From the IMG/VR virus record IMGVR_UViG_3300030012_000400, positions 1 through 31,003 of that record: a stretch of 31,003 bases of DNA; one strand, written 5' to 3'. This stretch comes from a virus. Below are positions 2,934 to 24,221 of this stretch, piece after piece. Made by a program: the position numbers and the translations under genes. A model generated the notes under the pieces. That model made no database searches, was not told the origin of the DNA, and saw only the letters and a list, made by a program, of their open reading frames with translations. Each line of letters begins with the position of its first letter. The stretch's first letter is position 1.

Positions 2934-2959
2934 ACAATAAACTAAACTCTAATATGTAT
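2934..2959 (-). promoter_or_regulatory. Degenerate copy of the TAACAA-N14-TATTGT element before the tail chaperone
   Basis: TATTGT occupies 2934-2939, exactly six bases before the chaperone ATG. The upstream half-site reads ATACAT instead of TAACAA at the same 14-base distance. It lies between the terminator at 2961-2992 and the gene, where a promoter is needed. It is weaker than the other copies because only one half is intact. Confidence 0.45.
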
Positions 2960-2960
2960 A

Positions 2961-2992
2961 AAAAGAAAAAGAGCCACATTTCTGCAGCTCTT
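2961..2992 (-). terminator. Rho-independent terminator before the tail chaperone
   Basis: On the minus strand a 10-bp stem (AAGAGCTGCA pairing with TGTGGCTCTT, two G-T wobbles) closes on a GAAA tetraloop and is followed by TTTCTTTT. It ends transcripts coming from the packaging genes and separates them from the tail module. The central GCAGAAATGT is identical to that of the terminator at 19563-19591. Confidence 0.85.
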
Positions 2993-3015
2993 AAAAACAA
3001 ATGAAAAAACATATA

Positions 3016-3252
3016 CTACCTTTTTTGGTAGTAATCACAATATAATGAATTTATTCTATCATACATTGCATCTCTCTCCTTTTTGTTCTTTTGTGACCAT
3101 ATAATATCACCTGTTCTTTTAAATCCTTGATAGTTTACTTGTATTGCTAATCTTGGTGGCTTTTCAGGATTTGCTTCTTTCCAAATGATAGGATATATCT
3201 TAATATCATTTTCTAAACACCAGCTCATACATTGTGCTATCTTTCTATACAT
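3016..3252 (-). CDS. Small conserved-type hypothetical protein (78 aa)
   Basis: This short mixed alpha/beta protein begins MYRKIAQCMSWCLENDIKIY and contains a segment QVNYQGFKRTGDIIWS. I recall similar small proteins in flavobacterial phages, but I know no function for them. It overlaps the 62-residue membrane protein gene upstream by 8 bases and is followed directly by a strong terminator. It is therefore the last gene of the unit started by the promoter at 3456-3487. Confidence 0.65.
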   Translation of the reverse strand: MYRKIAQCMSWCLENDIKIYPIIWKEANPEKPPRLAIQVNYQGFKRTGDIIWSQKNKKERDAMYDRINSLYCDYYQKR

Positions 3253-3433
3253 AATACAGCCAAAGTATTATATCAAGTATTCCATACATCATTGCAAAGG
3301 CCACTACATTCATTAATGCAGCTAAACCAATTGTTTTTAGTAACCATTTTCTTCTTGCTTTAGATGTAGCTTTCTTTATAAGATAGTACTCTACACTAAA
3401 ATCATTTCTCCAATTATCAGTATCTATTTTCAT
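3245..3433 (-). CDS. Small membrane protein (62 aa)
   Basis: The N-terminal half is polar and basic (to about residue 30, ending KARRKW). The C-terminal half is hydrophobic (residues about 32-62, LLKTIGLAALMNVVAFAMMY and then ILDIILWLYYV). This suggests one or two membrane helices with the basic end in the cytoplasm. No family is recognised. The gene has its own promoter matching the Bacteroidetes consensus, so it and the next gene can be expressed separately from the terminase. Confidence 0.65.
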   Translation of the reverse strand: MKIDTDNWRNDFSVEYYLIKKATSKARRKWLLKTIGLAALMNVVAFAMMYGILDIILWLYYV

Positions 3434-3455
3434 AATTAAAAGTTTTAAAGTTAAA

Positions 3456-3487
3456 CAAAGATATAAACATTTTATTAATATACAAAA
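3456..3487 (-). promoter_or_regulatory. Bacteroidetes-type promoter (TTTTG-N19-TATCTTTG)
   Basis: On the minus strand TTTTG (3483-3487) is followed after exactly 19 bases by TATCTTTG (3456-3463). This matches the known Bacteroidetes housekeeping pattern TTTG-N19-TAnnTTTG. It overlaps the end of the large terminase gene and lies 22 bases upstream of the ATG at 3433. It is the best host-type promoter in the window. Confidence 0.7.
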
Positions 3488-4644
3488 TATTGCCCTTTAG
3501 TTGGGTTTTCTAGTTGATCTGTAAATACATATCTAGCAGCATCTATACAATCAGGATGTGCTCCACTTGGTTTCTGTAAGGTGTTGCCATCTTTATCTTT
3601 TGCCCAAACATAACCCTGTAATTCTTTTTTTAGGTTTCTGCTTCTTGCTGTAATATATATTTCATTTTGGTTTATTAGATTAATACCATATACTATACTA
3701 TCTCTACCTTTGCTTACTGGAAATACATTGTGGCCATAACCTACCAGCTCAGCAATTGATTTTGGTTCTGCTGAATCTGCTATTATATTTTCTTTTATAT
3801 TGTTAGCTTCTAAGAATCTACTTATATCTCTATTGAGCATACCAGTTTTGTATAGTACCTCATCAAATACATAAGCATTATTCCATTTGTATAATCCAAT
3901 TAGTGTAGTAGGATCTATAGAATAACCAAAGTCCATACCATAAGATAGCAATCTTGCTTCAGCAGGTAGTTTATCTATTTCTTTCCAATCTGGTATACAT
4001 GCACCACTTAAAGTACCTTGTAAACCTAATCCATACACATTCCACCAGTTTTGCCAATAAGTTGAGGTTTTAGCTTTATCTCTTGCTTTCTCTATCTCTT
4101 TTATTATTGTTGGTGCTAGTGCATCATTATCTTTATAAGTAAGTGTAATATAATCTACATCTGGTTGGCCTATTACTTCTTTATCTACCCAAAAGGTATG
4201 GCTAGGGTTATAATCTAACCATATTACTCCAGAAGTTCTAATAGATAATTCACTGTAACTAGAAAAAGGAATATTGTTACACTCATTAATAAAGAGATCA
4301 GTTCTTCTAGCTCCCCTGAGCCTTTGAGGTTGATCTGTACTAAAAAATTCAATATAGCTGCCATTGTTAAAAGTATATTTTAGGGTACTTCTGTTAAACT
4401 GTACTTCTCTAAATCTATTTAAACCTTGCATTATAGAAAGAAAATCCTTGAGAGCTCCTCTCTTAATACTTGGTATAGATTCAGCTACTACACTAATTTC
4501 TTTACCCTTGTTAGTAATTGCATCATTAATTAATATTAGTAAAATGCAGAATGTTTTAGAAGCAGATGTACCACCCTTGATAACCCTTGTTCTTTGGGTA
4601 AGTTCTCTAAGTTTGATAAGTGCTTTGGTTTTTTTTATCTGCAT
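3475..4644 (-). CDS. terL: Terminase large subunit
   Basis: This is the ATP-driven DNA packaging motor and nuclease. The ATPase domain shows Walker A GGTSASKT (residues 24-31) and Walker B DLFINE (116-121). The C-terminal RNase H-like nuclease shows acidic residues in YGMDFGYSID (D238), IADSAEP (D290) and HPDCIDAARYV (D365 or D368). The length of 389 residues is slightly short but complete for phages of this type. It lies 30 bases downstream of the small terminase, as usual. The start ATG at 4644 gives a protein beginning MQIKKTKAL just before the Walker A strand. Confidence 0.95.
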   Translation of the reverse strand: MQIKKTKALIKLRELTQRTRVIKGGTSASKTFCILLILINDAITNKGKEISVVAESIPSIKRGALKDFLSIMQGLNRFREVQFNRSTLKYTFNNGSYIEFFSTDQPQRLRGARRTDLFINECNNIPFSSYSELSIRTSGVIWLDYNPSHTFWVDKEVIGQPDVDYITLTYKDNDALAPTIIKEIEKARDKAKTSTYWQNWWNVYGLGLQGTLSGACIPDWKEIDKLPAEARLLSYGMDFGYSIDPTTLIGLYKWNNAYVFDEVLYKTGMLNRDISRFLEANNIKENIIADSAEPKSIAELVGYGHNVFPVSKGRDSIVYGINLINQNEIYITARSRNLKKELQGYVWAKDKDGNTLQKPSGAHPDCIDAARYVFTDQLENPTKGQYFVY

Positions 4645-4674
4645 ATAGGTTGCAGAGTAGGGTTAAAGTTATCC

Positions 4675-4905
4675 CTAATCCACAAATAAAGGTAACTCCT
4701 CTACTAATGTAATATCCTTAGTTTCTTTTGGTTTACCTGCATAATAGTTGTAAAATAACTGTACAAATTTGAAATCTCCTTTTTCCACACCTTTCTTTAA
4801 AGCTTCAAAAGCTGTATCTTCTAAAGGTGATAATTTCTCTATCAGAGATACCTCATCTGCTTTAGATTTTCTACCAGCTCCTGCTCTTTTACCACCACTT
4901 GCCAT
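4675..4905 (-). CDS. terS: Putative terminase small subunit
   Basis: This 76-residue protein starts with a basic GGKRAGAGRKSKADE segment, typical of small terminase N-termini. A helical region (LEDTAFEALKKGVEKGDFKF, then VQLFYNYYAGKPKE) and an acidic tail follow. The size is at the low end for TerS, and no clear helix-turn-helix is visible. The position immediately before terL makes the call likely. The ATG at 4905 is preceded by a leader holding the bipartite promoter-like element and a perfect TAnnTTTG box. Confidence 0.65.
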   Translation of the reverse strand: MASGGKRAGAGRKSKADEVSLIEKLSPLEDTAFEALKKGVEKGDFKFVQLFYNYYAGKPKETKDITLVEELPLFVD

Positions 4906-4925
4906 TTTGAAAAAAATTGATTAAT

Positions 4926-4958
4926 CAAATATACAATAAAAAATATAGTGTTTTGTTA
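4926..4958 (-). promoter_or_regulatory. TAACAA-N14-TATTGT element plus TATATTTG box upstream of the terminase genes
   Basis: On the minus strand TAACAA (4953-4958) and TATTGT (4933-4938) are 14 bases apart, the same spacing as at four other loci. TATATTTG (4926-4933), a perfect match to the Bacteroidetes -7 box TAnnTTTG, overlaps the last T. Here the ATG is not six bases downstream; a leader of roughly 25 bases remains. Two sigma types could use the site. Confidence 0.6.
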
Positions 4959-5663
4959 AAACATTCTTATTTGGGATTGGTGTTGTTTTAGTCTTTTAGT
5001 AGCTGCTTCAAAGTAATCTTTATCTAATTCATACCCTGTTAAATCATATCCTAAATTATGACATGCTATTGCTATGCTACCAGATCCTAAATGTGTATCT
5101 AATATTTTATCTCCTTCTTTTGCATAGTTCATAAGTAACCACTCATACAGCTTTACTGGTTTTTGTGTTGGGTGTATTCTTTTTTCATTTAATTTTTTAT
5201 TTCCATTTTGTTTATTAGCTTTATAATAATTTTTATTAATTTCTTTACCCTGAAACATACCAATCCATTTATACCTGATTAAATCAGTTCTGTTATTAAT
5301 ACTATTGTATGCAATTTCACAATCAAATTGATCACAATTATCATTTAATTTATCCCAAACAATTCTACCACCATTAAAACAATAAACATAATAATTTACA
5401 CCCCAAACTATTTGATTTTTACTTATTCTTTTTAATTCATCAAAATATTTTTTTTTTGGTGTGATATTATCCCAATCCTTATTCTTATAATTATTATTTG
5501 GAGTTTTACTTAATACTCCATTTTTTTGCTTAATTAAATGTTTTTTTTTACTCAGTTTGGAAGCACCTATACCATAAGGAGGATCAACAATGGCTAAATC
5601 AAACTGATTATCTTTAAAATTAACCATTGCTTCTAAACAATTCCCATTATATAAGTTTATCAT
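4956..5663 (-). CDS. Site-specific DNA methyltransferase (DPPY, N6-adenine/N4-cytosine type)
   Basis: The catalytic motif DPPY is at residues 27-30, HPTQKP at 164-169, and the S-adenosylmethionine-binding motif DTHLGSGS at 189-196. This catalytic-before-AdoMet order is that of the beta class. The length of 235 residues is compact but complete. No restriction endonuclease lies beside it, so it is an orphan enzyme, most likely protecting phage DNA from host restriction or marking it for regulation. The target sequence cannot be read from the protein. Its ATG overlaps the stop of the DnaA-like gene (ATGA). Confidence 0.92.
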   Translation of the reverse strand: MINLYNGNCLEAMVNFKDNQFDLAIVDPPYGIGASKLSKKKHLIKQKNGVLSKTPNNNYKNKDWDNITPKKKYFDELKRISKNQIVWGVNYYVYCFNGGRIVWDKLNDNCDQFDCEIAYNSINNRTDLIRYKWIGMFQGKEINKNYYKANKQNGNKKLNEKRIHPTQKPVKLYEWLLMNYAKEGDKILDTHLGSGSIAIACHNLGYDLTGYELDKDYFEAATKRLKQHQSQIRMF

Positions 5664-6064
5664 ACTATCTGCTTCTTTAGTAATCTGTTTTCATTTCTTA
5701 CTTCTCTAAGATTTAAAAGTGCATCTTTATATTTATCTCTATAGTAAGAAGCAGGATCTATTTCTCTTTGGGTTGTATTTTTTTCTCTTCTTATTATTCT
5801 ATCAAGTTTATAAAATATCTTTTTGTATTCTAAAGAATCCTCATATATACCTATATGGGTATCAAATACCTTTATACCATGTAGTACTGTTGCATGATCC
5901 TTACCTACTGATTTACCTATCCTAGATAGTGAAGCTCTGGTATGTTGTTTACAGAGTTTAAAGTATACAGCTCTTGCATATACCATTTCTCTTTTTCTGT
6001 TTCTTATGTTGAGGTTTTGGTTTGTTTCCTGCTCAACTGCTTGTTTTATTTCTTCTAATCTCAT
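5660..6064 (-). CDS. Stand-alone DnaA domain IV-like DNA-binding protein
   Basis: Residues about 20-85 resemble the C-terminal DNA-binding domain of DnaA. They end in the signature helix GKSVGKDHATVLHGIK (residues 50-65), close to the DnaA box-binding motif RDHTTVLHA. The AAA+ ATPase and other DnaA domains are absent. The remaining residues (to 134) form a charged, probably coiled-coil tail. It may bind DnaA boxes to recruit or displace host DnaA, or may regulate transcription. It sits in the replication/nuclease region, overlaps the gene upstream by 32 bases and the methyltransferase downstream by 4. Confidence 0.8.
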   Translation of the reverse strand: MRLEEIKQAVEQETNQNLNIRNRKREMVYARAVYFKLCKQHTRASLSRIGKSVGKDHATVLHGIKVFDTHIGIYEDSLEYKKIFYKLDRIIRREKNTTQREIDPASYYRDKYKDALLNLREVRNENRLLKKQIV

Positions 6065-6269
6065 TTATCTTAGTTTTAATTGCTGTTAATGTTTGTGTTT
6101 TTACTTCTTTTATTGCCTTGTGTATTCCAGCACAAGCTTCATAATCTTCTATAGATTCATAATACTTCATGGCTTTTTGAAGATCTCTAATAGAAGCTCC
6201 ATCTGCTATATCATGTAGTGCCATCAGATAAAACTCTTCTATAAGTTGTGTTGCTTTTCTTTTAGCCAT
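6033..6269 (-). CDS. Small helical hypothetical protein (78 aa)
   Basis: This mostly helical, charged protein contains YLMALHDIADGASIRDLQKA and ESIEDYEACAGIHKAIKEV. I know no function. It overlaps both neighbours by about 30 bases: its start lies inside the PD-(D/E)XK gene and its end inside the DnaA-like gene. The overlap with real genes on both sides in the same direction, and its regular amino acid composition, support a real gene. Confidence 0.6.
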   Translation of the reverse strand: MAKRKATQLIEEFYLMALHDIADGASIRDLQKAMKYYESIEDYEACAGIHKAIKEVKTQTLTAIKTKINEIRRNKTSS

Positions 6270-6757
6270 TCTACTAACTCATCAAAAGTTTTTAAATATC
6301 TTTTCTTTATAAACCAAAACTCTTTGGTGTAATTTCTTTTACTATCTCTTTTCCATTGTGTATACCATTTATCTTGTAAACTACAAGGTACTACAAATGC
6401 AAAACCTGTTTTTTGTGATATTGTGATATAAGCAGTAATAAAATCTTTGTGTTCTTTCTTTTGCCAGTTCTCTATCATTTCAAACATCACATCATCATAA
6501 GGGTATTCTTCTATACAATTAAATTCTTTATCTGATGATTTTATTTCAAATATAAATTGCTTAGTACCTATATTAATAAATAAATCACCAGTATCTATAA
6601 AGTTATCTTTGGCTTTTCTTTTGTTTGGAAGTATTACATCAAATCCTTCTGCTGCAAATCTATCTCTTATTATCTCCTCATACTCATGCCCTTTAGATAA
6701 CTCTGCTAAGAATTTTTCTTTATTCCAATTACCCCCTTGATGATATATGTTCTCCAT
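6239..6757 (-). CDS. PD-(D/E)XK nuclease-like protein
   Basis: The order of acidic residues fits a PD-(D/E)XK nuclease core. GHEYEEIIRDRF gives the first helix with Glu near residues 25-27, DTGDLFIN gives Asp55/Asp58, and IFEIKSSD gives the E-x-K pair Glu71/Lys73. Length is 172 residues. In this setting it could be a Holliday junction resolvase or a DNA end-processing nuclease; it could also be a restriction-like enzyme paired with the nearby methyltransferase. Only the fold-level call is supported. Confidence 0.65.
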   Translation of the reverse strand: MENIYHQGGNWNKEKFLAELSKGHEYEEIIRDRFAAEGFDVILPNKRKAKDNFIDTGDLFINIGTKQFIFEIKSSDKEFNCIEEYPYDDVMFEMIENWQKKEHKDFITAYITISQKTGFAFVVPCSLQDKWYTQWKRDSKRNYTKEFWFIKKRYLKTFDELVEWLKEKQHNL

Positions 6758-6772
6758 TATATTAATATTTTT

Positions 6773-7342
6773 TCAACTCTTTGTTTGTTGTTCTTTTGTA
6801 TATAAATCTTCAATTTCTTTAATTGTAAAATTATCATGTATTATATTATGGCAATTTTCACATAGTATTTTTAAATCTCTTTGATGCTCATGCCCCCATC
6901 TTCTATAAGTTCTATGATGTATATGTAAATACTTAGAATCATTTGGAATATATCCACAATCTTCACATTTTATCCCTCTTTTCTTTAAGAGATATTTTCT
7001 TTTATTTCTCCAAATAAAAGATTTAACATAATTTTTGTGATTTTGTTTATTATCAAGGTCAAGATTTTTACAAAAGTATAAATTAAAAGGTTTTGTTTTT
7101 TCTTTTATATTTTCTGTATCTATAGATATGTTTAACTGACCTAATAACTTATCATTTACTTGTTTTATTACTTGTGTTATTCCAAATAAATGTTTATTAG
7201 TGATAATTCTTTTTTTCTTTATTGATATGGTTAACATACCTTTATAATTAGATGGTACATATCTATAATTTTTATTTTTTTTTATAGTTCTTAATAAGAA
7301 TACTTGATCTTTATTTAAAGGATACCCTCTAATTTTCTTCAT
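6773..7342 (-). CDS. HNH endonuclease
   Basis: The C-terminal third is a zinc-bound HNH module. It has C-x2-C at residues 126/129 (CEDCGY), HIHH at 140-143, and C-x2-CH-x3-H at 161-169 (LCENCHNIIH). The N-terminal 110 residues are Lys-rich and unassigned. The family includes homing endonucleases and phage packaging nucleases. Because terL is far away and the gene sits between two other nucleases, a mobile or recombination-linked enzyme is more likely than a packaging cofactor. Its ATG overlaps the stop of the exonuclease gene. Confidence 0.85.
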   Translation of the reverse strand: MKKIRGYPLNKDQVFLLRTIKKNKNYRYVPSNYKGMLTISIKKKRIITNKHLFGITQVIKQVNDKLLGQLNISIDTENIKEKTKPFNLYFCKNLDLDNKQNHKNYVKSFIWRNKRKYLLKKRGIKCEDCGYIPNDSKYLHIHHRTYRRWGHEHQRDLKILCENCHNIIHDNFTIKEIEDLYTKEQQTKS

Positions 7343-8100
7343 AAAATACCTCTTAATACATATTGATCTAAATCATTTTCATTCTGAAAGAAGTGTTTAT
7401 ATATACCTACTGCTTGTAAAAATTTATGTTTACCAGATTCTATAAACTCATTACTTGTTTCAAATATACCTATATCTGTAGAGCTTTTATCTACCACAAT
7501 AAATGTACACTTCTTTTTATTGAACATCTTTAAATATAAGTATGCTTGTAGATCATATCCAAATTTATTAGCTGAGAATCTAAAGCTAGATAAATCTTGT
7601 GAGCTTTTCAGATCTACTATCATATCATCTCTTAGTATATCTGCTTTTGCTCTAAAAGGTAGGCCTTCTAACATTGCAATCTGTGGTACTTCAAACTCTG
7701 CTTTACTAAGTAGTTTAAGTACTTCTTCATTTCTTAGTAGTGCATCTGTTAATCTTTCTGCATCATTTATTTCTTTTCTTAAATACACTTCTTGGTGTTT
7801 CTCTTTTGCTTCTTTGTAAGCTTTGGTGTTTTTAGTAGTAGCTTCTATAATATTTAACTTATCTATCTTGTGAGGCTCTAGCACCATCCAATGTAACAAC
7901 TTACCTTGTATTAGAGCTGGTGTATCTGTAGATCCATATTTCAATACATTTCTATAAGTTTTAGGTGATTTGAGTAAAGTTTTTAAACTGCTACTGCTTA
8001 AAGCATGTTGGCCTAGATGTCCATAATAAAAATCATCAGAATGTGCCATACCTATTATTTCTTCTTTGAGATAGGTTTCTCCATTTAATAATGTAATCAT
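7339..8100 (-). CDS. RecE/exonuclease VIII-like PD-(D/E)XK exonuclease
   Basis: The N-terminus has the LSSSSLKTLLKSPKTY segment and GKLLHWMVLEPHK (His70). The nuclease core follows with FRAKADIL (Asp154), IVDLKSS (Asp163, Lys165) and YDLQAYLY. This arrangement is that of phage exonuclease VIII-like proteins with a PDDEXK_1-like domain, which resect duplex ends for single-strand annealing. No RecT or Red-beta partner is recognisable nearby. The ATG at 8100 overlaps the preceding gene by 4 bases. Confidence 0.82.
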   Translation of the reverse strand: MITLLNGETYLKEEIIGMAHSDDFYYGHLGQHALSSSSLKTLLKSPKTYRNVLKYGSTDTPALIQGKLLHWMVLEPHKIDKLNIIEATTKNTKAYKEAKEKHQEVYLRKEINDAERLTDALLRNEEVLKLLSKAEFEVPQIAMLEGLPFRAKADILRDDMIVDLKSSQDLSSFRFSANKFGYDLQAYLYLKMFNKKKCTFIVVDKSSTDIGIFETSNEFIESGKHKFLQAVGIYKHFFQNENDLDQYVLRGIL

Positions 8101-8270: not shown

Positions 8271-8292
8271 AATAATTGTTTTAAAGTTTACT

Positions 8293-8585: not shown

Positions 8586-8656
8586 TAATAAAAAAATAAA
8601 CTAATTGTTTTACAAAATATTCTAATATTCTAAATAATATGTACCCAGCAAAAAGA

Positions 8657-8956
8657 TTACCCATAAGCTAATTTATATTTTTGTAATTCTTTTTCTACTT
8701 TTTCAAGTTTTGCCTCAGCTTTTCTAGCTCTTTCTATTGCTCTTAATTTATCTGCTCTGTATTCTGATAAACTCTTCTCCCACATCTCTTGGTTTACTTC
8801 CAACTCATGTGTATAGAAGTACCAGCTTGTAACTGCCTCTATCATTTTATCAAGTGCAGGTACTGGTTTCTTTTTTTTCCACTCTATCAGCTGTGTTGAT
8901 ACTGTAGAGAAATCATTACTAAATTGTATGCTTTTTAAGTTTTGTACTTTTCTCAT
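8657..8956 (-). CDS. Coiled-coil hypothetical protein (99 aa)
   Basis: The N-terminal half includes STQLIEWKKKKPVPALDKMI and an aromatic helix (SWYFYTHELEV). The C-terminal half (about residues 65-97) is a strongly charged heptad-like helix (AIERARKAEAKLEKVEKEL). I recall relatives in Bacteroidetes phages, always of unknown function. It overlaps the gene upstream by 4 bases. The 71 bases downstream (8586-8656) are AT-rich with no convincing signal. Confidence 0.6.
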   Translation of the reverse strand: MRKVQNLKSIQFSNDFSTVSTQLIEWKKKKPVPALDKMIEAVTSWYFYTHELEVNQEMWEKSLSEYRADKLRAIERARKAEAKLEKVEKELQKYKLAYG

Positions 8957-9375
8957 AAATATTGATTATAAACTTTTACTAATTGTTTCCACACTGTGTT
9001 TTTAAAACTACAAGGTATACATTCTACTCTTTGATTGAAAACTCTATTATATATGTTAGTGTATAGTTTTGTTTCTTCTGCTGTAAATTTTACCTTTTTA
9101 GTATCTATTGCCATTTGCATTAAACTAAACTCTTCTTCTGTAAAGCACTCTGGTTTCTTAGAAGGGAATAACTCATTAAGAGATTTTTTTCTAGATTCAC
9201 AGCCACAATCTTTACCTAATTTATCAAACACAGTATCTACTGCTTTCTTAATACCAGTAGCTTTGGTAATTTTTTCTACCTGATCTCCTAAACCATTGGA
9301 AGCTTTCTCATGATTTGCTTTCCACTCTTTATACTCTTTAGTTCTCTTGTCCTTTGGGGGTTTTGATGTATTCAT
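8953..9375 (-). CDS. Conserved-type phage protein with a CGC motif (140 aa)
   Basis: The sequence contains GLGDQVEKITKATGIKKAV, then KDCGCESRKKSLNELFP and later two more cysteines (RVECIPCSFK). I recognise this family from Bacteroidetes phages and prophages, where it lies near the sigma-like or replication genes, but I know no assigned function. The DCGC and ECIPC cysteine pairs could bind a metal; that is inference. It starts inside the sigma-like gene (38-base overlap) and overlaps the next gene by 4 bases. Confidence 0.65.
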   Translation of the reverse strand: MNTSKPPKDKRTKEYKEWKANHEKASNGLGDQVEKITKATGIKKAVDTVFDKLGKDCGCESRKKSLNELFPSKKPECFTEEEFSLMQMAIDTKKVKFTAEETKLYTNIYNRVFNQRVECIPCSFKNTVWKQLVKVYNQYL

Positions 9376-9910
9376 ATTCTCCTGTTTTAAAATCTGTGTA
9401 ATCTTCTTGTAATTTATTTTTTATATCTAACTTAAGGTTTTTTAAGGTATTAAATATACTTACCCAGCTTATCTTGGTTTCACTAGCAAGTTTTCTTATA
9501 CTCATATCTGTTCTAGAGTATAGCTTCCATATCTTCTTATCATACCAATGCCAATCATCAGAAACATCATCTACCAGCATACAGATCTGATGAAAGGCTT
9601 TATTTTCTTCTACATCATCTTGAGCTGGTAATTGTAAGAAGTTCTCATCACTATCTATATTTACTTTTTGTATTTTTTTCTTCTTATTATAGAATTGGTA
9701 GTATATTGATTTAAGTGTAAAAAACATATAACCTCTACTTACCTTACCATCTTTTATTATCTTATTAGGATCAGCATATTTTATTAGTGCCTCATAACTT
9801 TGTTGTACCAGATCCTCAGCATAGAAATGTTCACCAAAACTTTTTATAATACCTACCCAAGTTTTATGTTGTTTAGCTACAATATTTAACCATTCTAGTT
9901 CTCTATCCAT
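9338..9910 (-). CDS. Sigma-70-family-like transcription factor
   Basis: A start at 9910 (MDRELEWLNIV) is preferred over the ATG at 9940 because it leaves only a 16-base overlap with the gene before. A region 2-like segment reads FYAEDLVQQSYEALIKYA, then GYMFFTLKSIYYQFYNKKKK, as in ECF-type sigma factors. Near the C-terminus SIRKLASETKISWVSIFNTL looks like the region 4 helix-turn-helix. About 190 residues is normal for ECF-like proteins. It probably redirects host RNA polymerase to phage promoters; the TAACAA-N14-TATTGT elements are candidate targets. Confidence 0.7.
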   Translation of the reverse strand: MDRELEWLNIVAKQHKTWVGIIKSFGEHFYAEDLVQQSYEALIKYADPNKIIKDGKVSRGYMFFTLKSIYYQFYNKKKKIQKVNIDSDENFLQLPAQDDVEENKAFHQICMLVDDVSDDWHWYDKKIWKLYSRTDMSIRKLASETKISWVSIFNTLKNLKLDIKNKLQEDYTDFKTGEYEYIKTPKGQEN

Positions 9911-10104
9911 TGTACAGTGATACTTAAAAAAGCTATACATACTTGGAAGGTGTGCTCTCTACCTTCATCTAAATCTGTAAATGAATATAAAGAACCCATC
10001 ATAATTCCAATTATTGGTGCAAATGTTATTTCTGCATTATAGTAATAACCAAAAACAATAACACCTAAAGCTATACAACCTAATATAATAAAAAATGTAA
10101 TCAA
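9895..10104 (-). CDS. Small two-helix membrane protein (69 aa)
   Basis: Residues about 2-20 (MITFFIILGCIALGVIVFGY) and about 26-42 (ITFAPIIGIMMGSLYSF) are hydrophobic and should span the membrane; the remainder is polar with a short hydrophobic stretch. No family is recognised. It is placed between the helicase and the sigma-like gene and overlaps both by a few bases, so it is co-expressed with early genes rather than the lysis set. Confidence 0.6.
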   Translation of the reverse strand: MITFFIILGCIALGVIVFGYYYNAEITFAPIIGIMMGSLYSFTDLDEGREHTFQVCIAFLSITVQWIEN

Positions 10105-11045: not shown

Positions 11046-11360
11046 TTAAAATGGTGTTTCAACTCTTTGAGCATTTTGCTCTTTGTTTGTAACCTCATTT
11101 CTCTCTGCTATTGATATACCTCCTTCATCAACCCATTTCACTGCTGCATTACCTAGTGTAATAGGTTTTACTTTGTTATCTTGTTCTTTTTTTGTTTGTT
11201 GGTGTGTAATCCAAACATTATTACCATATTGAGATTTATCTTGCACCTTCATAGTAAAATTTAAATAACTTTTACCATTCTTGAGTTCTACTATTTTGCT
11301 TTTATCAATTGCTGTAAGTTCAATACTTCCTGAGATAATTGCTGTGTTTTTTTTGTCCAT
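11046..11360 (-). CDS. Putative single-stranded DNA-binding (OB-fold) protein
   Basis: The N-terminal 80 residues have the beta-strand rhythm of a small OB-fold: IISGSIELTAID, then KNGKSYLNFTMKVQDKSQYG and NNVWITHQQT. The tail is polar and ends VETPF, faintly like the acidic PF tip of SSB but without the Asp run. The position immediately before a replicative helicase supports a single-stranded DNA-binding role. This is the best guess rather than a firm family assignment. A near-match to the bipartite element (TAACAA-N14-TATTAT) overlaps its ATG. Confidence 0.5.
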   Translation of the reverse strand: MDKKNTAIISGSIELTAIDKSKIVELKNGKSYLNFTMKVQDKSQYGNNVWITHQQTKKEQDNKVKPITLGNAAVKWVDEGGISIAERNEVTNKEQNAQRVETPF

Positions 11361-16650: not shown

Positions 16651-16660
16651 ATTTTTTTAT

Positions 16661-16828
16661 TTAAAATTCTGTTGCATCTGCTGTAAATTGAGTTGTATCT
16701 GCTGTTTCTTTAGTAGTATCTGCAGTAAAGAATGAACCATCAGCATTAAAAGGATATACAATCCCCCATCCATTTGCTTCATTTGTGTTACCCCAGTAAC
16801 TAACTGGATATATTGCACCAAAACTCAT
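16661..16828 (-). CDS. 55-residue protein with three TADTT heptad repeats
   Basis: The protein begins MSFGAIYPVSYWGNTNEANG and ends with three near-exact seven-residue repeats: FTADTTK, ETADTTQ, FTADATE. Small proteins of this kind, with a WGxxNEANGWG-like start, recur in Bacteroidetes phages near fibre genes in my memory. It has a well-formed promoter-like element ending six bases before its ATG, which argues strongly that it is a real and separately expressed gene. Function is unknown; a small virion protein is plausible. Confidence 0.65.
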   Translation of the reverse strand: MSFGAIYPVSYWGNTNEANGWGIVYPFNADGSFFTADTTKETADTTQFTADATEF

Positions 16829-16829
16829 A

Positions 16830-16937
16830 TTATAACAATAATTTTTTTTCTAATTTGTTATTTAACTTAGTTATATATTCTTGCAGCTTAACCACATTTT
16901 GCTGCTTAGGTTTGTATTTCTTCTTTAGAGTAGCCAT
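16830..16937 (-). CDS. 35-residue basic protein
   Basis: The ORF reads MATLKKKYKPKQQNVVKLQE, then YITKLNNKLEKKLLL. It starts in another frame within the last codons of the head-tail connector gene and ends just before the 55-residue gene. It is Lys-rich and helical. The TAACAA-N14-TATTGT element of the next gene lies within its last codons. Its size makes it uncertain, but otherwise this interval would be a gap of about 95 bases in a compact genome. Confidence 0.4.
   Translation of the reverse strand: MATLKKKYKPKQQNVVKLQEYITKLNNKLEKKLLL
16835..16860 (-). promoter_or_regulatory. TAACAA-N14-TATTGT element before the 55-aa repeat protein
   Basis: TAACAA is at 16855-16860 and TATTGT at 16835-16840, exactly 14 bases apart. 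TATTGT lies six bases before the ATG at 16828. The flank TAACAAATTAGA is close to that of the copy before 19516 (TAACAAATTAAA). Confidence 0.65.
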
Positions 16938-17425: not shown

Positions 17426-19173
17426 TATCTTGGGTTTTTATATCCTTTATTTGGTCTCTTAGATGGTGGTGTACTTACTAATGTAGGTTCTTGTGCTTTA
17501 GTAGGTGCTTTAATACCTTCTTTTGTTCTTTCTGCTCTATAAGCTGGTTTTGCTTTTGGACTGTTAGGATCAGGTTTTACACCATCTCTAAATATATAAG
17601 TTTTTCTTAGCCAATAATGCTTACAGTTAGCTCCTCCAATGTGTAAAAATATATTGTAACTAGATTCCCCTTTAGCTGCTAGTTCACTATTTGAAGTACT
17701 GTTTTTATCTAGATCTTCTTTTCTATATATTCTTTTTGCTCTTACCATCTTTTTACAAAACTCCCTAGAGTTACCACTTACTATTAATGGTGCATACTGA
17801 TACCTTACTAAGTACCTTTTACCAGTTTCTGTTTCACCATCAAGCTCACTATTTGCTGTTGCTCTATTTGGTACTACAGATGCTAAACTCAGCATTTTAT
17901 CCAAAGCCTCTTCTTGCTCATAATCTACTGCTCTCTCATCAAAAAGTTCCCAGCCCTGCTTTAAAAGCTCCTCCTCACTCTCTCCTAGTCCATCTAGCAT
18001 TTCTAGTAGTTGCTCATCACTAGGCTCTTCTTTGCTGAGCTTTACACCTGTTTCTTCTTCTCTTGCTTCATCTGTTACAGCATTATCTGTTTCTATAAAC
18101 TCAAGAGGTTGCAATGTTTTAAAATATAATTTTAAGCTTATATTATTTACTGCTAGTATAGCATCCATACAATCAATAATTAAATCTTGATAAGGCTTTA
18201 TAGTTACATTTTGGAATAGTAGTGAAGCTGTTTTTATCTCATCAGCATTGTTACCTAAACCATTGTTACCATCTCTAATACCTAAAAGTAGAGGTGAAGT
18301 AACTCTATGTGCTACCATTAACTTTGATGCACATTCATTAGAAAGGTACTCATAGTGAGCTGGTGCATTATCTAAAGGTATATCATCTACAGTTGTTTTA
18401 CTTTCTGCATTGTTGTTAAAAGCAATAATTACTTTTTCACCTCTGCTACCAGTAAGCTTGTGCATTACATCAGATTTAATCTGTAATTGCTTTTCTCTAT
18501 CTGGTACACCATTGTTAAAGTTTACTACTTTAGTACCACTAAAACCATTTTGTACATCATTAATCAGGTAATCTGCTATCTCACTTTCTAATTCAGCATA
18601 GGCCAAACCACCTTGATAATCTACTGGACAATAATAAGAATAAGAAGATACATACTTCTTTACTATCTTGATTTCAGGTTCTATACCATTACCAAAACCA
18701 AATGCTGCTATTCTTTCTGGTTTCTCATGCCTTTTCATTTTTGCCCAATTAGGATGATAGTAGTAAGCTTCTATGTCACCATCATCAGAATACTTTTCTG
18801 CTCTTAGTGTTTCTCTTGGGAAATGTTCAGCTCTTACTACTTTACCATCTTTGTATAATACTTGAAAAGATGCCTCTCCTAATAGTTTAAGATCAAGAGA
18901 TACTTTCTTTAAACATTCATTATGGAATATAGATTTTAAAGCTGCATACTCATCTGTTTTAGTAGAGCTATCTAAAGCATCTATACCCTTACCATATATC
19001 ATATTAGTAACACCATTTATTATAGCATTGTTAGTTGTGCTATTAGTGTATAATTCTATAAGGTATTTGTAATAATCATTATCTTCTCCATAATTTACCC
19101 ACTTGTTTTTTTTATCCTCTTTTATTTTGGGTTTGTTATAAGAAGAAAGATTTATTATATGTAAGTTTTCCAT
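17425..19173 (-). CDS. Portal protein with a C-terminal minor-capsid-like domain
   Basis: The first 400 residues match phage portals: WVNYGEDNDYYKYLIELY at the N-terminus, IINGVTNMIYGKG, then DNAPAHYEYLSNECASKLM and RVTSPLLLGIRDGNNGLGNN. Portals form the dodecameric ring through which DNA enters the head. An acidic linker (about residues 375-440) leads to a second domain (about 445-550) with RYLVRYQYAP, SREFCKKMVRAKRIY and HIGGANCKHYWLRKTYI, resembling a MuF-like minor capsid tail. The last 35 residues are basic and Pro-rich. The length, 582, fits such a fusion. Confidence 0.85.
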   Translation of the reverse strand: MENLHIINLSSYNKPKIKEDKKNKWVNYGEDNDYYKYLIELYTNSTTNNAIINGVTNMIYGKGIDALDSSTKTDEYAALKSIFHNECLKKVSLDLKLLGEASFQVLYKDGKVVRAEHFPRETLRAEKYSDDGDIEAYYYHPNWAKMKRHEKPERIAAFGFGNGIEPEIKIVKKYVSSYSYYCPVDYQGGLAYAELESEIADYLINDVQNGFSGTKVVNFNNGVPDREKQLQIKSDVMHKLTGSRGEKVIIAFNNNAESKTTVDDIPLDNAPAHYEYLSNECASKLMVAHRVTSPLLLGIRDGNNGLGNNADEIKTASLLFQNVTIKPYQDLIIDCMDAILAVNNISLKLYFKTLQPLEFIETDNAVTDEAREEETGVKLSKEEPSDEQLLEMLDGLGESEEELLKQGWELFDERAVDYEQEEALDKMLSLASVVPNRATANSELDGETETGKRYLVRYQYAPLIVSGNSREFCKKMVRAKRIYRKEDLDKNSTSNSELAAKGESSYNIFLHIGGANCKHYWLRKTYIFRDGVKPDPNSPKAKPAYRAERTKEGIKAPTKAQEPTLVSTPPSKRPNKGYKNPR

Positions 19174-19174
19174 G

Positions 19175-19516
19175 TTATAAAACTATAAATTCATTTGCTA
19201 CACTTTGCTCTGTATATGCACTATTGTTTATTGAATAGGTATCTACAGTTTGATTAGTGCAGAATATTTTATCTCTAAATATTAGATTACTACCTTGTGT
19301 TATTTCTAATGTATAAAAGGTATCTTCTACTAAAGTAAAAGTATTACTATATTGATAATAATAATCATTAGCAGTAAAGGAAGTTGTTGTTTGACTAAAC
19401 ACTTCTTTGTTTGTAGTTTCATTAGTAATCTTAATAGTATAGGTTAAACCAGAAGTATAAGATCTTGGTATAAAACTAAATGTTTGGCTGCCTGTAGATT
19501 TTTGCAATACAATCAT
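19175..19516 (-). CDS. Small beta-rich structural candidate (113 aa)
   Basis: The protein MIVLQKSTGSQTFSFIPRSY onwards is rich in Thr, Ser, Tyr and Phe and has the alternating pattern of an Ig-like or beta-sandwich fold (YTIKITNETTNKEVFSQ, then FYTLEITQGSNLIFRDKIF). It ends SVANEFIVL. I recall similar short proteins beside portals of flavobacterial phages, function unknown. It follows a terminator and has its own promoter-like element with TATTGT six bases before the ATG. Confidence 0.6.
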   Translation of the reverse strand: MIVLQKSTGSQTFSFIPRSYTSGLTYTIKITNETTNKEVFSQTTTSFTANDYYYQYSNTFTLVEDTFYTLEITQGSNLIFRDKIFCTNQTVDTYSINNSAYTEQSVANEFIVL

Positions 19517-19522
19517 ATATAT

Positions 19523-19548
19523 ACAATAAATGTTTGTTTAATTTGTTA
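19523..19548 (-). promoter_or_regulatory. TAACAA-N14-TATTGT element before the portal operon
   Basis: TAACAA is at 19543-19548 and TATTGT at 19523-19528, 14 bases apart. TATTGT lies six bases before the ATG at 19516. It sits between the terminator after the tail tube gene and the next gene, exactly where a new promoter is required. Confidence 0.7.
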
Positions 19549-19562
19549 TTAATAGGGTAAAT

Positions 19563-19591
19563 AAAAAAAGGGTAACATTTCTGCTACCCCT
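19563..19591 (-). terminator. Rho-independent terminator after the tail tube gene
   Basis: On the minus strand GGGTAGCA and TGTTACCC form an 8-bp stem (one G-T wobble) with a GAAA tetraloop, followed by seven T residues. Its core GCAGAAATGT is the same as in the terminator at 2961-2992, although the outer stems differ. Confidence 0.88.
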
Positions 19592-19613
19592 TTAAAATCA
19601 AAAATCAAATCAA

Positions 19614-20162
19614 TTATGAATTTGTTCCCTCTGTTACTGTTACAGTTCCTGTTAATCCTGCAAATGGATTAGCTTCTGTAGCACCTTCTAAAAAGTTTGC
19701 TGGTGTTTGTTCTTGTGCATTTAGTGTAAGTGTATAACCACTTAAATCACCCATTGCTGCACCTGTTACTATAGTTCCACCTGTAACATCAGCTCCATGC
19801 TCTGCTCCCATTAAAAAAGCATTACCATTATAATCATGTACCACTACATGAGGCCTTCCATAACTCATTAGCTTCAACTCTTTATGATCTTGTACTGTCA
19901 TCTTCTTTAATGTAAGATTTAAAGTTTGATCAAAAAAAGTTGTACCATTCTCTCTTGAAGAAGTAATAGTTTGCTCAAAACTACTATTCCCTTTTATTTC
20001 ATATTTAAAAGCAGTTACAGTACCCAAGTCATCTACTACATCTGTATCAACACCATCATATCCTATGGTTATATCTCCATAATCCATGAAATATACTGCT
20101 TTGATACCACCTACTACATCTTTGCAGGGTTCTTTTCTACCTTTTGTTAAATCACAAGCCAT
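19614..20162 (-). CDS. Major tail tube protein (putative)
   Basis: The N-terminus MACDLTKGRKEPCKDVVGGI, then AVYFMDYGDITI, is a signature I associate with a tail tube family in Bacteroidetes phages. The middle (FEQTITSSRENGTTFFDQTL and LKKMTVQDHKELKLMSYGRP) is beta-rich with one helix, as in tube proteins. The gene is isolated between two strong terminators, right after the major capsid gene. This suggests separate high-level expression, as expected for the most abundant tail protein. Confidence 0.72.
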   Translation of the reverse strand: MACDLTKGRKEPCKDVVGGIKAVYFMDYGDITIGYDGVDTDVVDDLGTVTAFKYEIKGNSSFEQTITSSRENGTTFFDQTLNLTLKKMTVQDHKELKLMSYGRPHVVVHDYNGNAFLMGAEHGADVTGGTIVTGAAMGDLSGYTLTLNAQEQTPANFLEGATEANPFAGLTGTVTVTEGTNS

Positions 20163-20176
20163 ATTTTTATAGTATT

Positions 20177-20212
20177 AAAAAAGGGTAGGTAGGCACAAGG
20201 CTCACCCACCCT
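20177..20212 (-). terminator. Rho-independent terminator after the major capsid gene
   Basis: On the minus strand GGGTGGGTGAGCC pairs with GGCCTACC-type sequence in the opposite arm (12 positions, two G-T wobbles and one mismatch) and is followed by six T residues. It lies between the capsid and tail tube genes. Confidence 0.82.
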
Positions 20213-20235
20213 CTAAGATTAAACTTATCTACTTA

Positions 20236-21159
20236 TTAAGAGTAAAGTACAATATCAGATCCAATACCATATTGAACCCCTGCACTAAATCTCATTACAA
20301 TTCTTACATTATCAGAACCATCAATATCAGCCATATCAATAACTTTTACTTCATTGTGGTCTGCTAATAAACCAGTACCAAAGTATAAGTTAGATTTTTG
20401 TGATAATACTGCTCTGTTATCTGCTAAGCCTGTTGCTAAGAACAATCTCACTCCATCAAAGAAAGTAGGTTGTAATGCTTGGTTTGTACCTTCAGATCTA
20501 TAACCAGCAGCACCAACACCATTAGCAGCAAATCCACCTAAAGCTCTAATATAAGCTTGATAAATGTTTCTACTTACATATAATGTTAAATCCTCTTGCC
20601 CAAACAGTGCAGAAGGAGCTGCATCTAAAATTGCACCAAGCTGTCCAATAACATTAGAAGAAGTTACTGTAGTTGAAGATACATCAACAACATCAGAATC
20701 TGCTGCCATTAATGTAGTTAAACCATCAAATTCTCCATTGTTAGCAGTAACACCTCTCCAGATGTTTTGCTCAGTTTTCTCAGCTACTTTAGCTGCTACA
20801 TGTCCAATTAAGAAATCAGCAAAGTTAGAAGGTAAGTCATTATGTGCAGAGAATCCCATCTCTTGTGCCATAAATGTACTTATATAATCCTTCTTACATA
20901 ATTGTAAGTTTACTTGCTGAAACTCAGGTTGTATAATTCTTTCAGATATTGTTACAGTAGATGTAGGATCAAAGTCACAAGAAGCATCTTTGATTACATC
21001 ATCAACACCTAATTTTTGCACAACACTTTTAAATTTAATGTTGGGCATAATTTCAATTCCACCATTATCAATGGTTACACCACTTAATAAAGCTGCAGCC
21101 ACATATTTAGATGCACTCTCTCCAGCATAAGAAGTAGTAATAGTTTGCGTAGTTGCCAT
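20236..21159 (-). CDS. Major capsid protein (HK97-fold candidate)
   Basis: The 307-residue protein has the layout of an HK97-type shell protein. It has an N-terminal arm, a central P-domain-like region (IQPEFQQVNLQLCKKDYIST, then FADFLIGHVAAKVAEKTEQN) and an A-domain region with FGQEDLTLYVSRNIYQAYIR. The late segment FFDGVRLFLATGLADNRAVL leads to a strand-rich C-terminus with NVRIVMRFSAGVQYGIGSD. It is encoded after scaffold and decoration genes and followed by a terminator, as expected for a very highly expressed protein. There is no long N-terminal delta domain; a separate scaffold gene is present. Confidence 0.82.
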   Translation of the reverse strand: MATTQTITTSYAGESASKYVAAALLSGVTIDNGGIEIMPNIKFKSVVQKLGVDDVIKDASCDFDPTSTVTISERIIQPEFQQVNLQLCKKDYISTFMAQEMGFSAHNDLPSNFADFLIGHVAAKVAEKTEQNIWRGVTANNGEFDGLTTLMAADSDVVDVSSTTVTSSNVIGQLGAILDAAPSALFGQEDLTLYVSRNIYQAYIRALGGFAANGVGAAGYRSEGTNQALQPTFFDGVRLFLATGLADNRAVLSQKSNLYFGTGLLADHNEVKVIDMADIDGSDNVRIVMRFSAGVQYGIGSDIVLYS

Positions 21160-21184
21160 TTTTTATCTATTTATTTTTTAATTA

Positions 21185-21598
21185 TTAACTAGGATCTGTA
21201 GCTGTTATTGATCCTGCTGCACTTCCTACACCATTCACAAACCAGTTTGATCCATCACACTCAAGTTCTATATAGTCTCCTGCAACAGCAGTAGAAGCTA
21301 CAAAGTTAATTTGATCTTCTTCTACAGCAGCTACACTTGCACCATTTACCACTAAAATACCATCAATGTTATCACCTTCTGCTGAGTCTACAATCCAATT
21401 GGTAGTAGGCTCTGTTGCACCAATGATAAATTTGAAGTTTGATCCTGATTTTAATGAAGGTAATGTTAATGTACCTCCACCTGTAGCATTTAGTATAAAT
21501 ACTTTACCACTATCAGCACCTACAAGAGTTTTGCCTCCTGTTAAGCTTTCTACCTTTTTAAAAATTCTGGTAGCATCATTTGAAATTGTTGTTGCCAT
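21185..21598 (-). CDS. Head decoration protein candidate (137 aa)
   Basis: This Gly-, Ala- and Thr-rich beta protein begins MATTISNDATRIFKKVESLT and ends FVNGVGSAAGSITATDPS. Segments SGKVFILNATGGGTLTLPSL and FKFIIGATEPTTNWIVDSAE suggest a compact beta-roll of the sort used in capsid decoration or fibre tips. Its position between the scaffold and major capsid genes makes a head decoration role most likely. I see no decisive motif. Confidence 0.6.
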   Translation of the reverse strand: MATTISNDATRIFKKVESLTGGKTLVGADSGKVFILNATGGGTLTLPSLKSGSNFKFIIGATEPTTNWIVDSAEGDNIDGILVVNGASVAAVEEDQINFVASTAVAGDYIELECDGSNWFVNGVGSAAGSITATDPS

Positions 21599-21606
21599 TT
21601 TTATTA

Positions 21607-22185
21607 TTAATTATTAGAAATTTTACTTAATACTCTGTCTAAAGTTGTAATACCACTTTTTTGCCCATATAAGAAAACTTCTTTTTGTGCTTCTTTCTCA
21701 GGATTGTGTTTCACTTTAGGTACTGCAGAAAGTTCCTCTTTAGGTTCTTCTACTTTTTCTTCTTCTACTACTTCTGAAGCCATATCTTGTTTTTTATCTA
21801 TCATAGCTTTGATTTCTTTAATCATTTCTTTAACCTCTGATAGCTCTTCTTTTGTAGCATATTTCATTTCTTCTTTATCATCTTCTTCAAGCTGTTGCTC
21901 TTCTGATAAATCCTCCTCAGCAGGTTCTTCTTCTTTAGCTGCACCAATAGATGCAATGATGCCCTCTTCTTTTACCATAAGAATCTGCCCATCTTCTAAA
22001 GTGTACTCACCAACTGGTAAAGCTACTTTTTCATCTTCTGTTATAATAAAAACTTCTTTACCTTCTGATAAAGATTCAGCTTCTATTATAGTTCCATTCT
22101 CTAAAGTAGCTTGTGCTAGTTTAACTTCTTCTGTTTCAATAGAAAGAAGCTCTTTTGCTTTTTTAAGTACTTCTGTTGCTTTCAT
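21607..22185 (-). CDS. Capsid scaffold-like protein
   Basis: The protein is strongly charged, with a Glu-rich stretch (about residues 85-105) and a coiled-coil helix (EELSEVKEMIKEIKAMIDKK). An N-terminal beta unit (VALPVGEYTLEDGQILMVKE, then EGIIASIGAA) recurs in Bacteroidetes phage proteins encoded just before decoration and capsid genes. The C-terminus (GITTLDRVLSKISNN) is basic and helical, as in scaffold proteins that bind capsid. Its promoter-like element lies immediately upstream. Confidence 0.65.
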   Translation of the reverse strand: MKATEVLKKAKELLSIETEEVKLAQATLENGTIIEAESLSEGKEVFIITEDEKVALPVGEYTLEDGQILMVKEEGIIASIGAAKEEEPAEEDLSEEQQLEEDDKEEMKYATKEELSEVKEMIKEIKAMIDKKQDMASEVVEEEKVEEPKEELSAVPKVKHNPEKEAQKEVFLYGQKSGITTLDRVLSKISNN

Positions 22186-22191
22186 GTTATT

Positions 22192-22217
22192 ACAATAAAT
22201 TAAATATTAAGTTGTTA
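22192..22217 (-). promoter_or_regulatory. TAACAA-N14-TATTGT element before the scaffold-capsid operon
   Basis: TAACAA is at 22212-22217 and TATTGT at 22192-22197, 14 bases apart. TATTGT lies six bases before the ATG at 22185. It would drive scaffold, decoration and major capsid genes up to the terminator at 20177-20212. Confidence 0.7.
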
Positions 22218-22222
22218 GATTT

Positions 22223-22579
22223 TTAGTTTGCTGCTATACAAGCATCACAATCACTATAATTAGTTACAGAATTTATTTTTTGATCTCCTGCTGTTTTTAC
22301 TTGGGTAACAGTATAACATCCATTATGATTTGCATTAAGGAAATTAAAATAGTAAACATTATTTACTGTTAGCTCTACACCTATTATATATATTTCTTTT
22401 TGTGAACTGTGCCCACATTTTTGTATTTTATAATAGTAGGTAGTTGCTTTTGTTATGTTACCAATACCTTGTGCTTGGAAACTACCATCACAGCACTTTC
22501 TTGAGTATGTACCATCTGGACACAAGCACCCCCTTCTATCATCTTTAGGGCTTGGTGCTTTTTCATTGTATTCTCTCAT
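22223..22579 (-). CDS. Cys-rich small protein (118 aa)
   Basis: The N-terminus KAPSPKDDRRGCLCPDGTYS, then KCCDGSFQAQGIGNI, is a recurring signature in Bacteroidetes phages near the maturation protease. Eight cysteines in 118 residues, some paired (CLC, CC, CDAC), suggest metal binding or disulfides in the virion. The rest is beta-rich (YYYKIQKCG, then NNVYYFNFLNAN). Function is unknown. Its ATG overlaps the protease stop (ATGA). Confidence 0.62.
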   Translation of the reverse strand: MREYNEKAPSPKDDRRGCLCPDGTYSRKCCDGSFQAQGIGNITKATTYYYKIQKCGHSSQKEIYIIGVELTVNNVYYFNFLNANHNGCYTVTQVKTAGDQKINSVTNYSDCDACIAAN

Positions 22580-24189
22580 TTTGGTGCTTTAGGATGTTTA
22601 GCTGGTAGTAAATCAAAATCACCAGTGTACTTTTTATTCTCAGGCCTACCATTCTTTACTAGATATAGAAAAGCATTTACTCTTGCAAAAGCCCATTGGC
22701 TTGGGTTGTTTACTCTTGGTGAATGTGAAACATTAAATGCACCTAATCCTCTTTGAAATACTGCTTTTAGTTTTCCTACTGTAACACCATACCCTAGCTT
22801 ATCTTTATATCTTTCATTAAACTCATCTGATTTCTTTTGTAAAGTAGCCTCATCTGCTTTGGATACTTTTGCACCTCTACCTGTAGAAGCATCTCCTTTT
22901 GCTGTGCCTTCTCCTTTTGGGTTTTTATTAGGTGTATCTGATTTAGGTGCTTTAGGGCTTTTTTTTACACCACCTCTTTCACCTATCTCTGCTAGATCTT
23001 CTGATAATGGTACACACTTATGTTTTTGGTAATCTTTTTTATACCCCTTTGGGCATTTGTATTTTTTAAATTCTTCTGCTGTAAGTTTATGTTCTTTACA
23101 TGGCATATACCAAGTTTTACCTTCAAACTCATGCTCATGATAATCTTCACAGCCTATATCTTTTGCAGCTTCTATAGCCATCTCTTTTGTAGAGTAAGCT
23201 AATCTATCATCTATTATTGCAAGTGTATCATCTATAATCTCAGATTTTAAACTTAACATATCTAAACTTTTTAATTTAGATTCACTCCAAGATTTACCTG
23301 ATTTACCACCCCATAGTAAAAAACTTATTGTGCCACATGCTTCTGTATCTTCTGGTTTGTAATACTCCTCAGCTCTTGATAAATAGCTGTACATTCTTTT
23401 TATAGTTTCTACACTTATAGGTTTACCTTGTGCTAATTGTTGTGCCCTGATCTTACCTACTGGTGTTGCACATTTGTTGTTTACTTTTTCATTTAATTCA
23501 ATACCTCTTTTAGCATTGTTCTTTACAGCATCAGGATAATCTCTATAAGATTCCATTTCTATAGTAGTACCCTTTTTATATCTGTTATCTTTTTTGATTA
23601 TAGCCTTCATCTCAGAAAGTAAGTACTCAGCTTCTTCTTCTTCCCACTCAGCTAGTTTATTTGGCTCATTAGGCCTTTCTAATTTATCTGCAAAATACCC
23701 TTCTATAGAAAACCCTTTTACTTTACCAGTTTTTACATAATCATTCCATACATCATCATTCTGTACTTTCATTGATAACATCCAAGTACCCTTAGGCATA
23801 CTCATACCATAAGCTGCACTCTTATCTTTTTTAGGATCTTCTACTAACCAAGATTCTACTGCTACTAAACCACTTAGTGCTTTACCATGTTCTAATGTAG
23901 ATTTATTGTAGTTGCCTCTTATGAAAAATAACTCACTTGCTTTTCTTACAGTATCTCTTGAAAAATATATATAGTAATCTTTATCACCACTTTTTCTATA
24001 TATAGGTTTATTAGGAATAAGAGCAGCACCCATAAGGATTCTCTTCTCTTTGTTCACTTCAGCAAATTTAAACTCTTGGTTTTTTAATGCTATAAAGTCC
24101 TCTTCAATTGCAGGGTTCTCTACTATAGATACTGCCTCAATTCCTGATACTTCATCATTTTCATCAATAAAAAGCTCTACTATATCCAT
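22576..24189 (-). CDS. Prohead maturation protease (XkdF/S78_2-like) with C-terminal extensions
   Basis: The N-terminal 170 residues fit the XkdF-type phage serine protease: ENPAIEEDF, then STLEHGK with His101, and VKGFSIEGYF with Ser161 as probable catalytic residues. It should process capsid or scaffold proteins. The middle (about 210-310) has DYPDAVKNNAKRGIELNEKV and MYSYLSRAEEY, then CGTISFLLWGGKSGKSWSES. The C-terminal 80 residues (LGYGVTVGKLKAVFQRGLGA, then WAFARVNAFLYLVKNGRPEN) form a third module, DUF5824-like, seen elsewhere as a separate phage domain. At 537 residues it is much longer than a bare protease. Confidence 0.8.
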   Translation of the reverse strand: MDIVELFIDENDEVSGIEAVSIVENPAIEEDFIALKNQEFKFAEVNKEKRILMGAALIPNKPIYRKSGDKDYYIYFSRDTVRKASELFFIRGNYNKSTLEHGKALSGLVAVESWLVEDPKKDKSAAYGMSMPKGTWMLSMKVQNDDVWNDYVKTGKVKGFSIEGYFADKLERPNEPNKLAEWEEEEAEYLLSEMKAIIKKDNRYKKGTTIEMESYRDYPDAVKNNAKRGIELNEKVNNKCATPVGKIRAQQLAQGKPISVETIKRMYSYLSRAEEYYKPEDTEACGTISFLLWGGKSGKSWSESKLKSLDMLSLKSEIIDDTLAIIDDRLAYSTKEMAIEAAKDIGCEDYHEHEFEGKTWYMPCKEHKLTAEEFKKYKCPKGYKKDYQKHKCVPLSEDLAEIGERGGVKKSPKAPKSDTPNKNPKGEGTAKGDASTGRGAKVSKADEATLQKKSDEFNERYKDKLGYGVTVGKLKAVFQRGLGAFNVSHSPRVNNPSQWAFARVNAFLYLVKNGRPENKKYTGDFDLLPAKHPKAPK

Positions 24190-24195
24190 ACTAAT

Positions 24196-24221
24196 ACAAT
24201 AATAATTTTAAGTTTTTGTTA
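24196..24221 (-). promoter_or_regulatory. TAACAA-N14-TATTGT element before the maturation protease
   Basis: TAACAA is at 24216-24221 and includes the TAA stop of the tape measure gene. TATTGT is at 24196-24201, 14 bases away and six bases before the ATG at 24189. The spacing is identical to the copies before 22185, 19516 and 16828. Confidence 0.7.

Follow-up and report, generated by a model that had tools for sequence, protein, structure and literature searches.

What reads a two-part sequence element that recurs, letter for letter, just ahead of the structural genes of an uncultured marine phage, and where would transcription begin behind it? The DNA that raises this question, hereafter the window, is the whole of a 31-kb virus record (31,003 nucleotides; IMGVR_UViG_3300030012_000400) that codes almost wholly on the minus strand and carries a replication/early block at ~5-14 kb with structural genes on both sides. 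The phage probably infects flavobacteria, to judge from its kinship with Nonlabens phage P12024S and its AT-rich, Bacteroidota-like context. The original prediction took the element, TAACAA-N14-TATTGT, for a late promoter that might give leaderless mRNAs. Conservation, strand bias, placement and a concerted, lineage-specific change of the second box (box2) strongly support the late-promoter reading; leaderless initiation, a strong inference, would fit the geometry without being universal.

Five identical copies lie, as predicted, at 24196-24221, 22192-22217, 19523-19548, 16835-16860 and 4933-4958, all on the minus (coding) strand of the window and none on the plus strand; the shuffled control that the prediction had asked for gave a mean of 0.04 exact copies and a maximum of 1 in 100 dinucleotide shuffles. 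In all five TAACAA/TATTGT pairs found 0-60 nt apart on the minus strand the spacer is 14. With two mismatches allowed there are 24 matches against 16 expected, not clearly above chance, so the signal is carried by exactness and placement. A sixth copy, of the TATACA type (TATACAT...TATTGT, 2934-2961, minus strand), has TATACATA as its first box (box1). The constant TATTGT-N6-ATG spacing announced for five of the six copies holds for those at 24196, 22192, 19523, 16835 and 2934; the exception is the copy at 4933.

Numbered along the direction of transcription, candidate promoter 1 (24196-24221) ends 6 nt before the ATG (24189) of a gene for a head maturation protease-like protein (22576-24189, minus strand; PHROG 24921 and 3017), the first gene behind it, and its TAA doubles as the stop codon of the upstream gene; it stands at the same gene in the related genomes G003, G018 and G030, and in G010 as AAACAA. 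Candidate promoter 2 (22192-22217) lies 6 nt before the gp192 ATG (22185), ahead of the capsid genes, and in relatives the ATG follows at 6, 7, 8 or 19 nt. The third (19523-19548), preceded by a terminator-like hairpin (19593-19566) and kept in all five genomes of the window's clade, is 6 nt from the ATG (19516) of gp113 (19175-19516, minus strand), its first gene, ahead of the portal gene. The fourth (16835-16860), at the same site in G003, G030 and G018, serves a small gene of the 59-codon class (16651-16828; ATG at 16828, 6 nt away) ahead of tail-fibre-like genes. The fifth (4933-4958) overlaps a host-like TATATTTG and lies 27 nt before the terS-like ATG (4905), a leader that is conserved in relatives. 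The sixth (2934-2961), preceded by a hairpin (2992-2969), is 6 nt from the gp220 ATG (2927).

Some parts of the original prediction needed correction. The copy at 2934 had been called half-degenerate; it is present, but its divergence is no accident, TATACATA being box1 at gp220 in all five clade genomes. As this box and the longer terS leader are both conserved, the two apparent exceptions are features of the system. The copies had been said to follow terminators, which is directly so for two of six, promoters 3 and 6. They had also been said to differ from the Bacteroidetes TTTG/TAnnTTTG pattern, a contrast that is correct at five of six sites and breaks down at terS: the host sigma-ABfr arrangement (TTTG at -33, TAnnTTTG at -7) is not what precedes these genes, the terS copy alone overlapping such a host-like sequence. 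Sigma-70 TTGACA/TATAAT sites are rarer in the window than in shuffles. A near match at 11359, where TATTAT overlaps the ATG, is not conserved in relatives and probably due to chance.

Three observations stand apart. The terS leader (4905-4932), which separates the promoter from the start codon, contains the near-palindrome TTGATTAATCAA, and its predicted RNA fold is no better than that of shuffles. Inside the late region, at 3456-3486, a promoter of host-like type, TTTG-N19-TATCTTTG, precedes a small gene (3245-3433), with 22 nt between it and the ATG. Finally, a family of tiny late proteins (34-73 aa, M(A/S)NxINWGxIYC...), encoded at 16651-16828 in the window and in loci retrieved through the motif (e.g. 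L302 and L320), is always the product of the first gene behind a promoter.

Related loci were fetched through the gene in the capsid position (20236-21159) and the protease. The coding strand of these relatives has 37 pairs with a spacer of 14 and no more than 4 with any other spacer, and the opposite strand has none; like all our comparative counts, these are drawn from related phages and do not represent independent events. In the clade of five genomes (the window, G003, G010, G018 and G030), [AT]ACA-N15-TATTGT has 5-7 coding-strand matches per genome and a single one on the other strand in all five together. Orthologous promoters precede the protease, gp192, gp113, the small gene, terS and gp220, some members of the set being missing or shifted in single genomes. 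A scan of IMG/VR that started from the motif retrieved at least 116 new loci, and 86 of the 116 listed carry two or more late-gene homologues of the window; a spacer-13 control returned 80 stretches in all, 4 of them related, and an N9 control 1 related stretch among the 84 matches listed. A two-box element thus recurs on the coding strand before late genes, the pattern known from phage 7-11. A literature search, made mostly without subscription papers, found no description of the motif.

More than 50 related contigs and the cultured P12024S keep the layout [A/T]AC-N16-box2, with a box2 that is constant within one phage and differs between lineages: before gp113 it reads AGTTAT, GTTAYT, CGTTAT, CGATAT, TATTAT or GGTTAT in other lineages and CGTTAA in the isolate P12024S. 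With gp113 as the anchor gene, box2 was learned there and then used to search the DNA ahead of every other gene in that phage. A phage's own box2 was found at 39 sites, compared with 0.7 +/- 0.8 for a box2 taken from other phages (maximum 3 in 200 draws) and with at most 6 when the spacing was shifted by 1-5 nt. Several promoters per genome have changed in step, which implies that some trans-acting factor reads their sequence and is not the same in every lineage; at the level of sequence, the counts for own and swapped boxes are the signature of such a factor. Other approaches were less informative: enumerated dyads alone gave too weak a signal, chance matches in AT-rich DNA diluted the pooled spacer spectrum when box1 was loosely defined, and unanchored EM motif finding per genome overfitted coding sequence. 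As a separate observation, locus L236 of G013, a phage with a distant sigma factor, carries a TATATCA-N13-CGGATTA two-box element upstream of its gp192 and gp220 homologues.

Promoters of extracytoplasmic function (ECF) sigma factors have an AAC-N16-box layout, exemplified by TGAAAC-N16-CGTA of Bacillus subtilis SigW. The same layout is found here in most lineages: AAC or TAC is separated from box2 by N16 in 31 and by N17 in 2 of 37 gp113 sites, which were selected for leaderless geometry, the remaining 19 of 56 lacking it. In a freshwater clade with [TA]ATTA[AT] as box2, N16 accounts for 43 sites and no other spacing for more than 18, and a pair of genomes with AATTTT has 4 sites at N16 and none at other spacings. 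The boxes are centred near -30 and -10, as is promoter motif 2 of Bacteroides thetaiotaomicron (PMC7366714).

Transcription would begin at or within ~2 nt of the A of the ATG and yield a leaderless mRNA. Among distinct test sites, the called ATG follows box2 at 6 nt in 25 of 36 and at 5-8 nt in 29 of 36, and at five of the window's six sites box2 spans -12 to -7, the position of the -10-like box ~12 nt before the start codon that is taken as a sign of TA-led leaderless genes (Zheng 2011, PMC3160421). The phage sigma factor of phiEco32 has a measured start 6-8 bp after its box (PMC8948821), and a start of this type would here fall at or next to the A of the ATG. T is enriched at -1 of promoter starts (30/36 versus 328/692, P = 2e-5), as expected of a pyrimidine-purine initiator, although this is a possible explanation among others. 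Leaders this short would be uncommon in hosts of this phylum: 87% of leaders exceed 10 nt in Flavobacterium johnsoniae transcripts (PMC6847099), and ~3.7% of 5' UTRs are below 10 nt in B. thetaiotaomicron (PMC7366714).

The 6-nt spacing is not absolute, since some copies lie 7, 8, 16, 19, 27 or more nt from the ATG, and the promoter might act as proposed with a start several nucleotides up- or downstream, so that leaders are ultra-short or translation begins elsewhere. This is unlikely in our view, although not negligible: in related lineages 14-17 nt separate box2 from the ATG (most sites of the freshwater clade, which would leave an 8-11 nt A-rich leader) and in the window's own clade some sites have 7-27 nt, whereas, at the spacing known for sigma factors, 6 nt after box2 would barely accommodate a leader and the late-gene ATG is the conserved N-terminus, alignments starting from residue 1.

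The likely reader of these promoters, judged from sequence families and a structural model, is a divergent ECF-like sigma factor of 200 aa encoded at 9338-9940 on the minus strand. Its assignment comes from the family matches of its relatives and from the model fold: of the 25 aligned members, every one hits PHROG 1740 (RNA polymerase sigma factor), 19 hit Sigma70_r2 and 13 Sigma70_r4_2, mostly weakly, and the window protein alone has no Pfam match. An AlphaFold model of moderate confidence (pLDDT 75, pTM 0.43) has ECF sigmas as its top PDB fold matches; a search of solved structures with the alignment profile gave one weak sigma match (E 0.51). On these weak sequence matches and this moderate-confidence model, the protein has the make-up of an ECF sigma, regions 2 and 4 only in ~200 aa, and the families and fold of the relatives indicate a phage-encoded sigma factor, as in 7-11. 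A relative turned up in 36 of the 50 records examined, which were partly chosen for having the gene. No phage isolate matching the window protein by sequence was found; P12024S, reached through the protease, encodes a sigma-70 region 2 gene. Promoter types mostly cluster together in the sigma tree, an agreement that, given the largely common ancestry of sigma and structural genes, does not settle the matter. In G013 and G016 the portal groups with the TATTGT clade and the sigma is distant, and the G013 element is also different. The link between sigma and promoter, resting on shared ancestry and this one discordant case, is suggestive.

Immediately downstream of the sigma gene and on its strand, 8953-9375 encodes a Cys-containing protein of 140 aa (GLGDTVEK...CGC...CxxC) whose homologue keeps this position in 38 of 38 records including P12024S, where the gene carries a late-type promoter of its own. 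The protein matches no known family or fold and is possibly a partner of the sigma factor. Its constant company, and the fact that concerted change needs only some trans-acting sequence reader, would also suit a late promoter of the same geometry read by another phage factor, be it an activator working with a host sigma or, for example, this protein itself. We give that reading a slim chance, as a pair of boxes spaced as in ECF promoters, with box2 placed where the DNA is melted, is a pattern read by sigma factors, five of the six sites lack the host-type TAnnTTTG, and the 140-aa protein has no recognised DNA-binding fold. Hardly credible at all is an inverted-repeat operator of a dimeric regulator, entertained in the original prediction, or else a hairpin in the RNA or a signal for translation: in the window's clade the ACAA and TTGT halves do form an inverted pair about two helical turns apart, but elsewhere box1 stays ACAA-like and the spacing is kept while box2 becomes AGTTAT, CGTTAA, GTTAYT or [TA]ATTAW, a loss of symmetry that excludes the palindromic-operator and hairpin readings, and leaders that vary in length do not suit a fixed signal for translation.

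A late promoter read by a phage ECF-type sigma factor, with a start at or within 1-2 nt of the ATG, is in our judgement quite probable. Promoter function, this sigma as the reader and the exact start are what we infer from the element, its spacing, placement, conservation and concerted lineage-specific change as they are seen in the sequences. The sigma factor (9338-9940) would be made earlier in infection and carried by host RNA polymerase, its region 4 binding box1 ([T/A]AC(A), about -31 to -28) and its region 2 melting box2 (TATTGT, -12 to -7); the start would fall ~7 nt beyond box2, on the A of the ATG or no more than 1-2 nt from it, and the mRNAs of five of six late operons would be leaderless or nearly so. 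On balance we also favour, somewhat less firmly, a wider picture in which a large phage family, with flavobacteria as the probable hosts, expresses its late genes from leaderless mRNAs that are made with a fast-diverging phage ECF-type sigma. All late promoters of a phage would then change jointly with the sigma, and at orthologous genes at least one clade would differ in having leaderless or short-leader starts. Late promoters placed on the ATG would offer a natural test of leaderless starts by ribosomes that do not rely on Shine-Dalgarno sequences, with a cultured family member at hand in Nonlabens phage P12024S/L. Matched sigma and promoter types form a series from which the reading of the second box by region 2 could be worked out, and the element can be used to mark late operons in uncultured phages.

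Among known systems, Salmonella phage 7-11 is similar in having a bipartite element before late genes, GTAAtg-16-aCTA, read there by host core polymerase with the phage sigma gp47; in the related phiEco32 sigma and promoter differ (PMC8948821). Unlike 7-11, whose host is a gammaproteobacterium, the phages studied here have different sequences and another sigma lineage, and the text searched of that report mentions no leaderless arrangement for 7-11 (PMC8948821). Late promoters of AR9, AACA-N6-TA/G with UTRs of 26-491 nt, and those of phiKZ share an AT-rich phage late consensus with ours, AR9 also the AACA, but are read by a phage multisubunit polymerase (PMC5312081). Host sigma-ABfr promoters (TTTG / TAnnTTTG) are likewise AT-rich, two-element promoters of the same phylum (PMC7366714, PMC6847099) and differ in sequence and spacing, the terS copy alone overlapping a host-like -7 element. 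TA-led leaderless genes were found in 1 of 37 Bacteroidetes/Chlorobi genomes (PMC3160421); the promoters described here differ from them in belonging to phages and in having a second, upstream box. ECF promoters such as that of SigW have in common with them the AAC element, the 16-nt spacing and a short second box, which here is AT-rich, varies by phage lineage and is abutted by the ATG, in a system that is phage-encoded and tied to late genes. The system is of a known kind, that of phage-sigma late promoters, and unusual in Bacteroidota, where leaderless mRNAs are rare.
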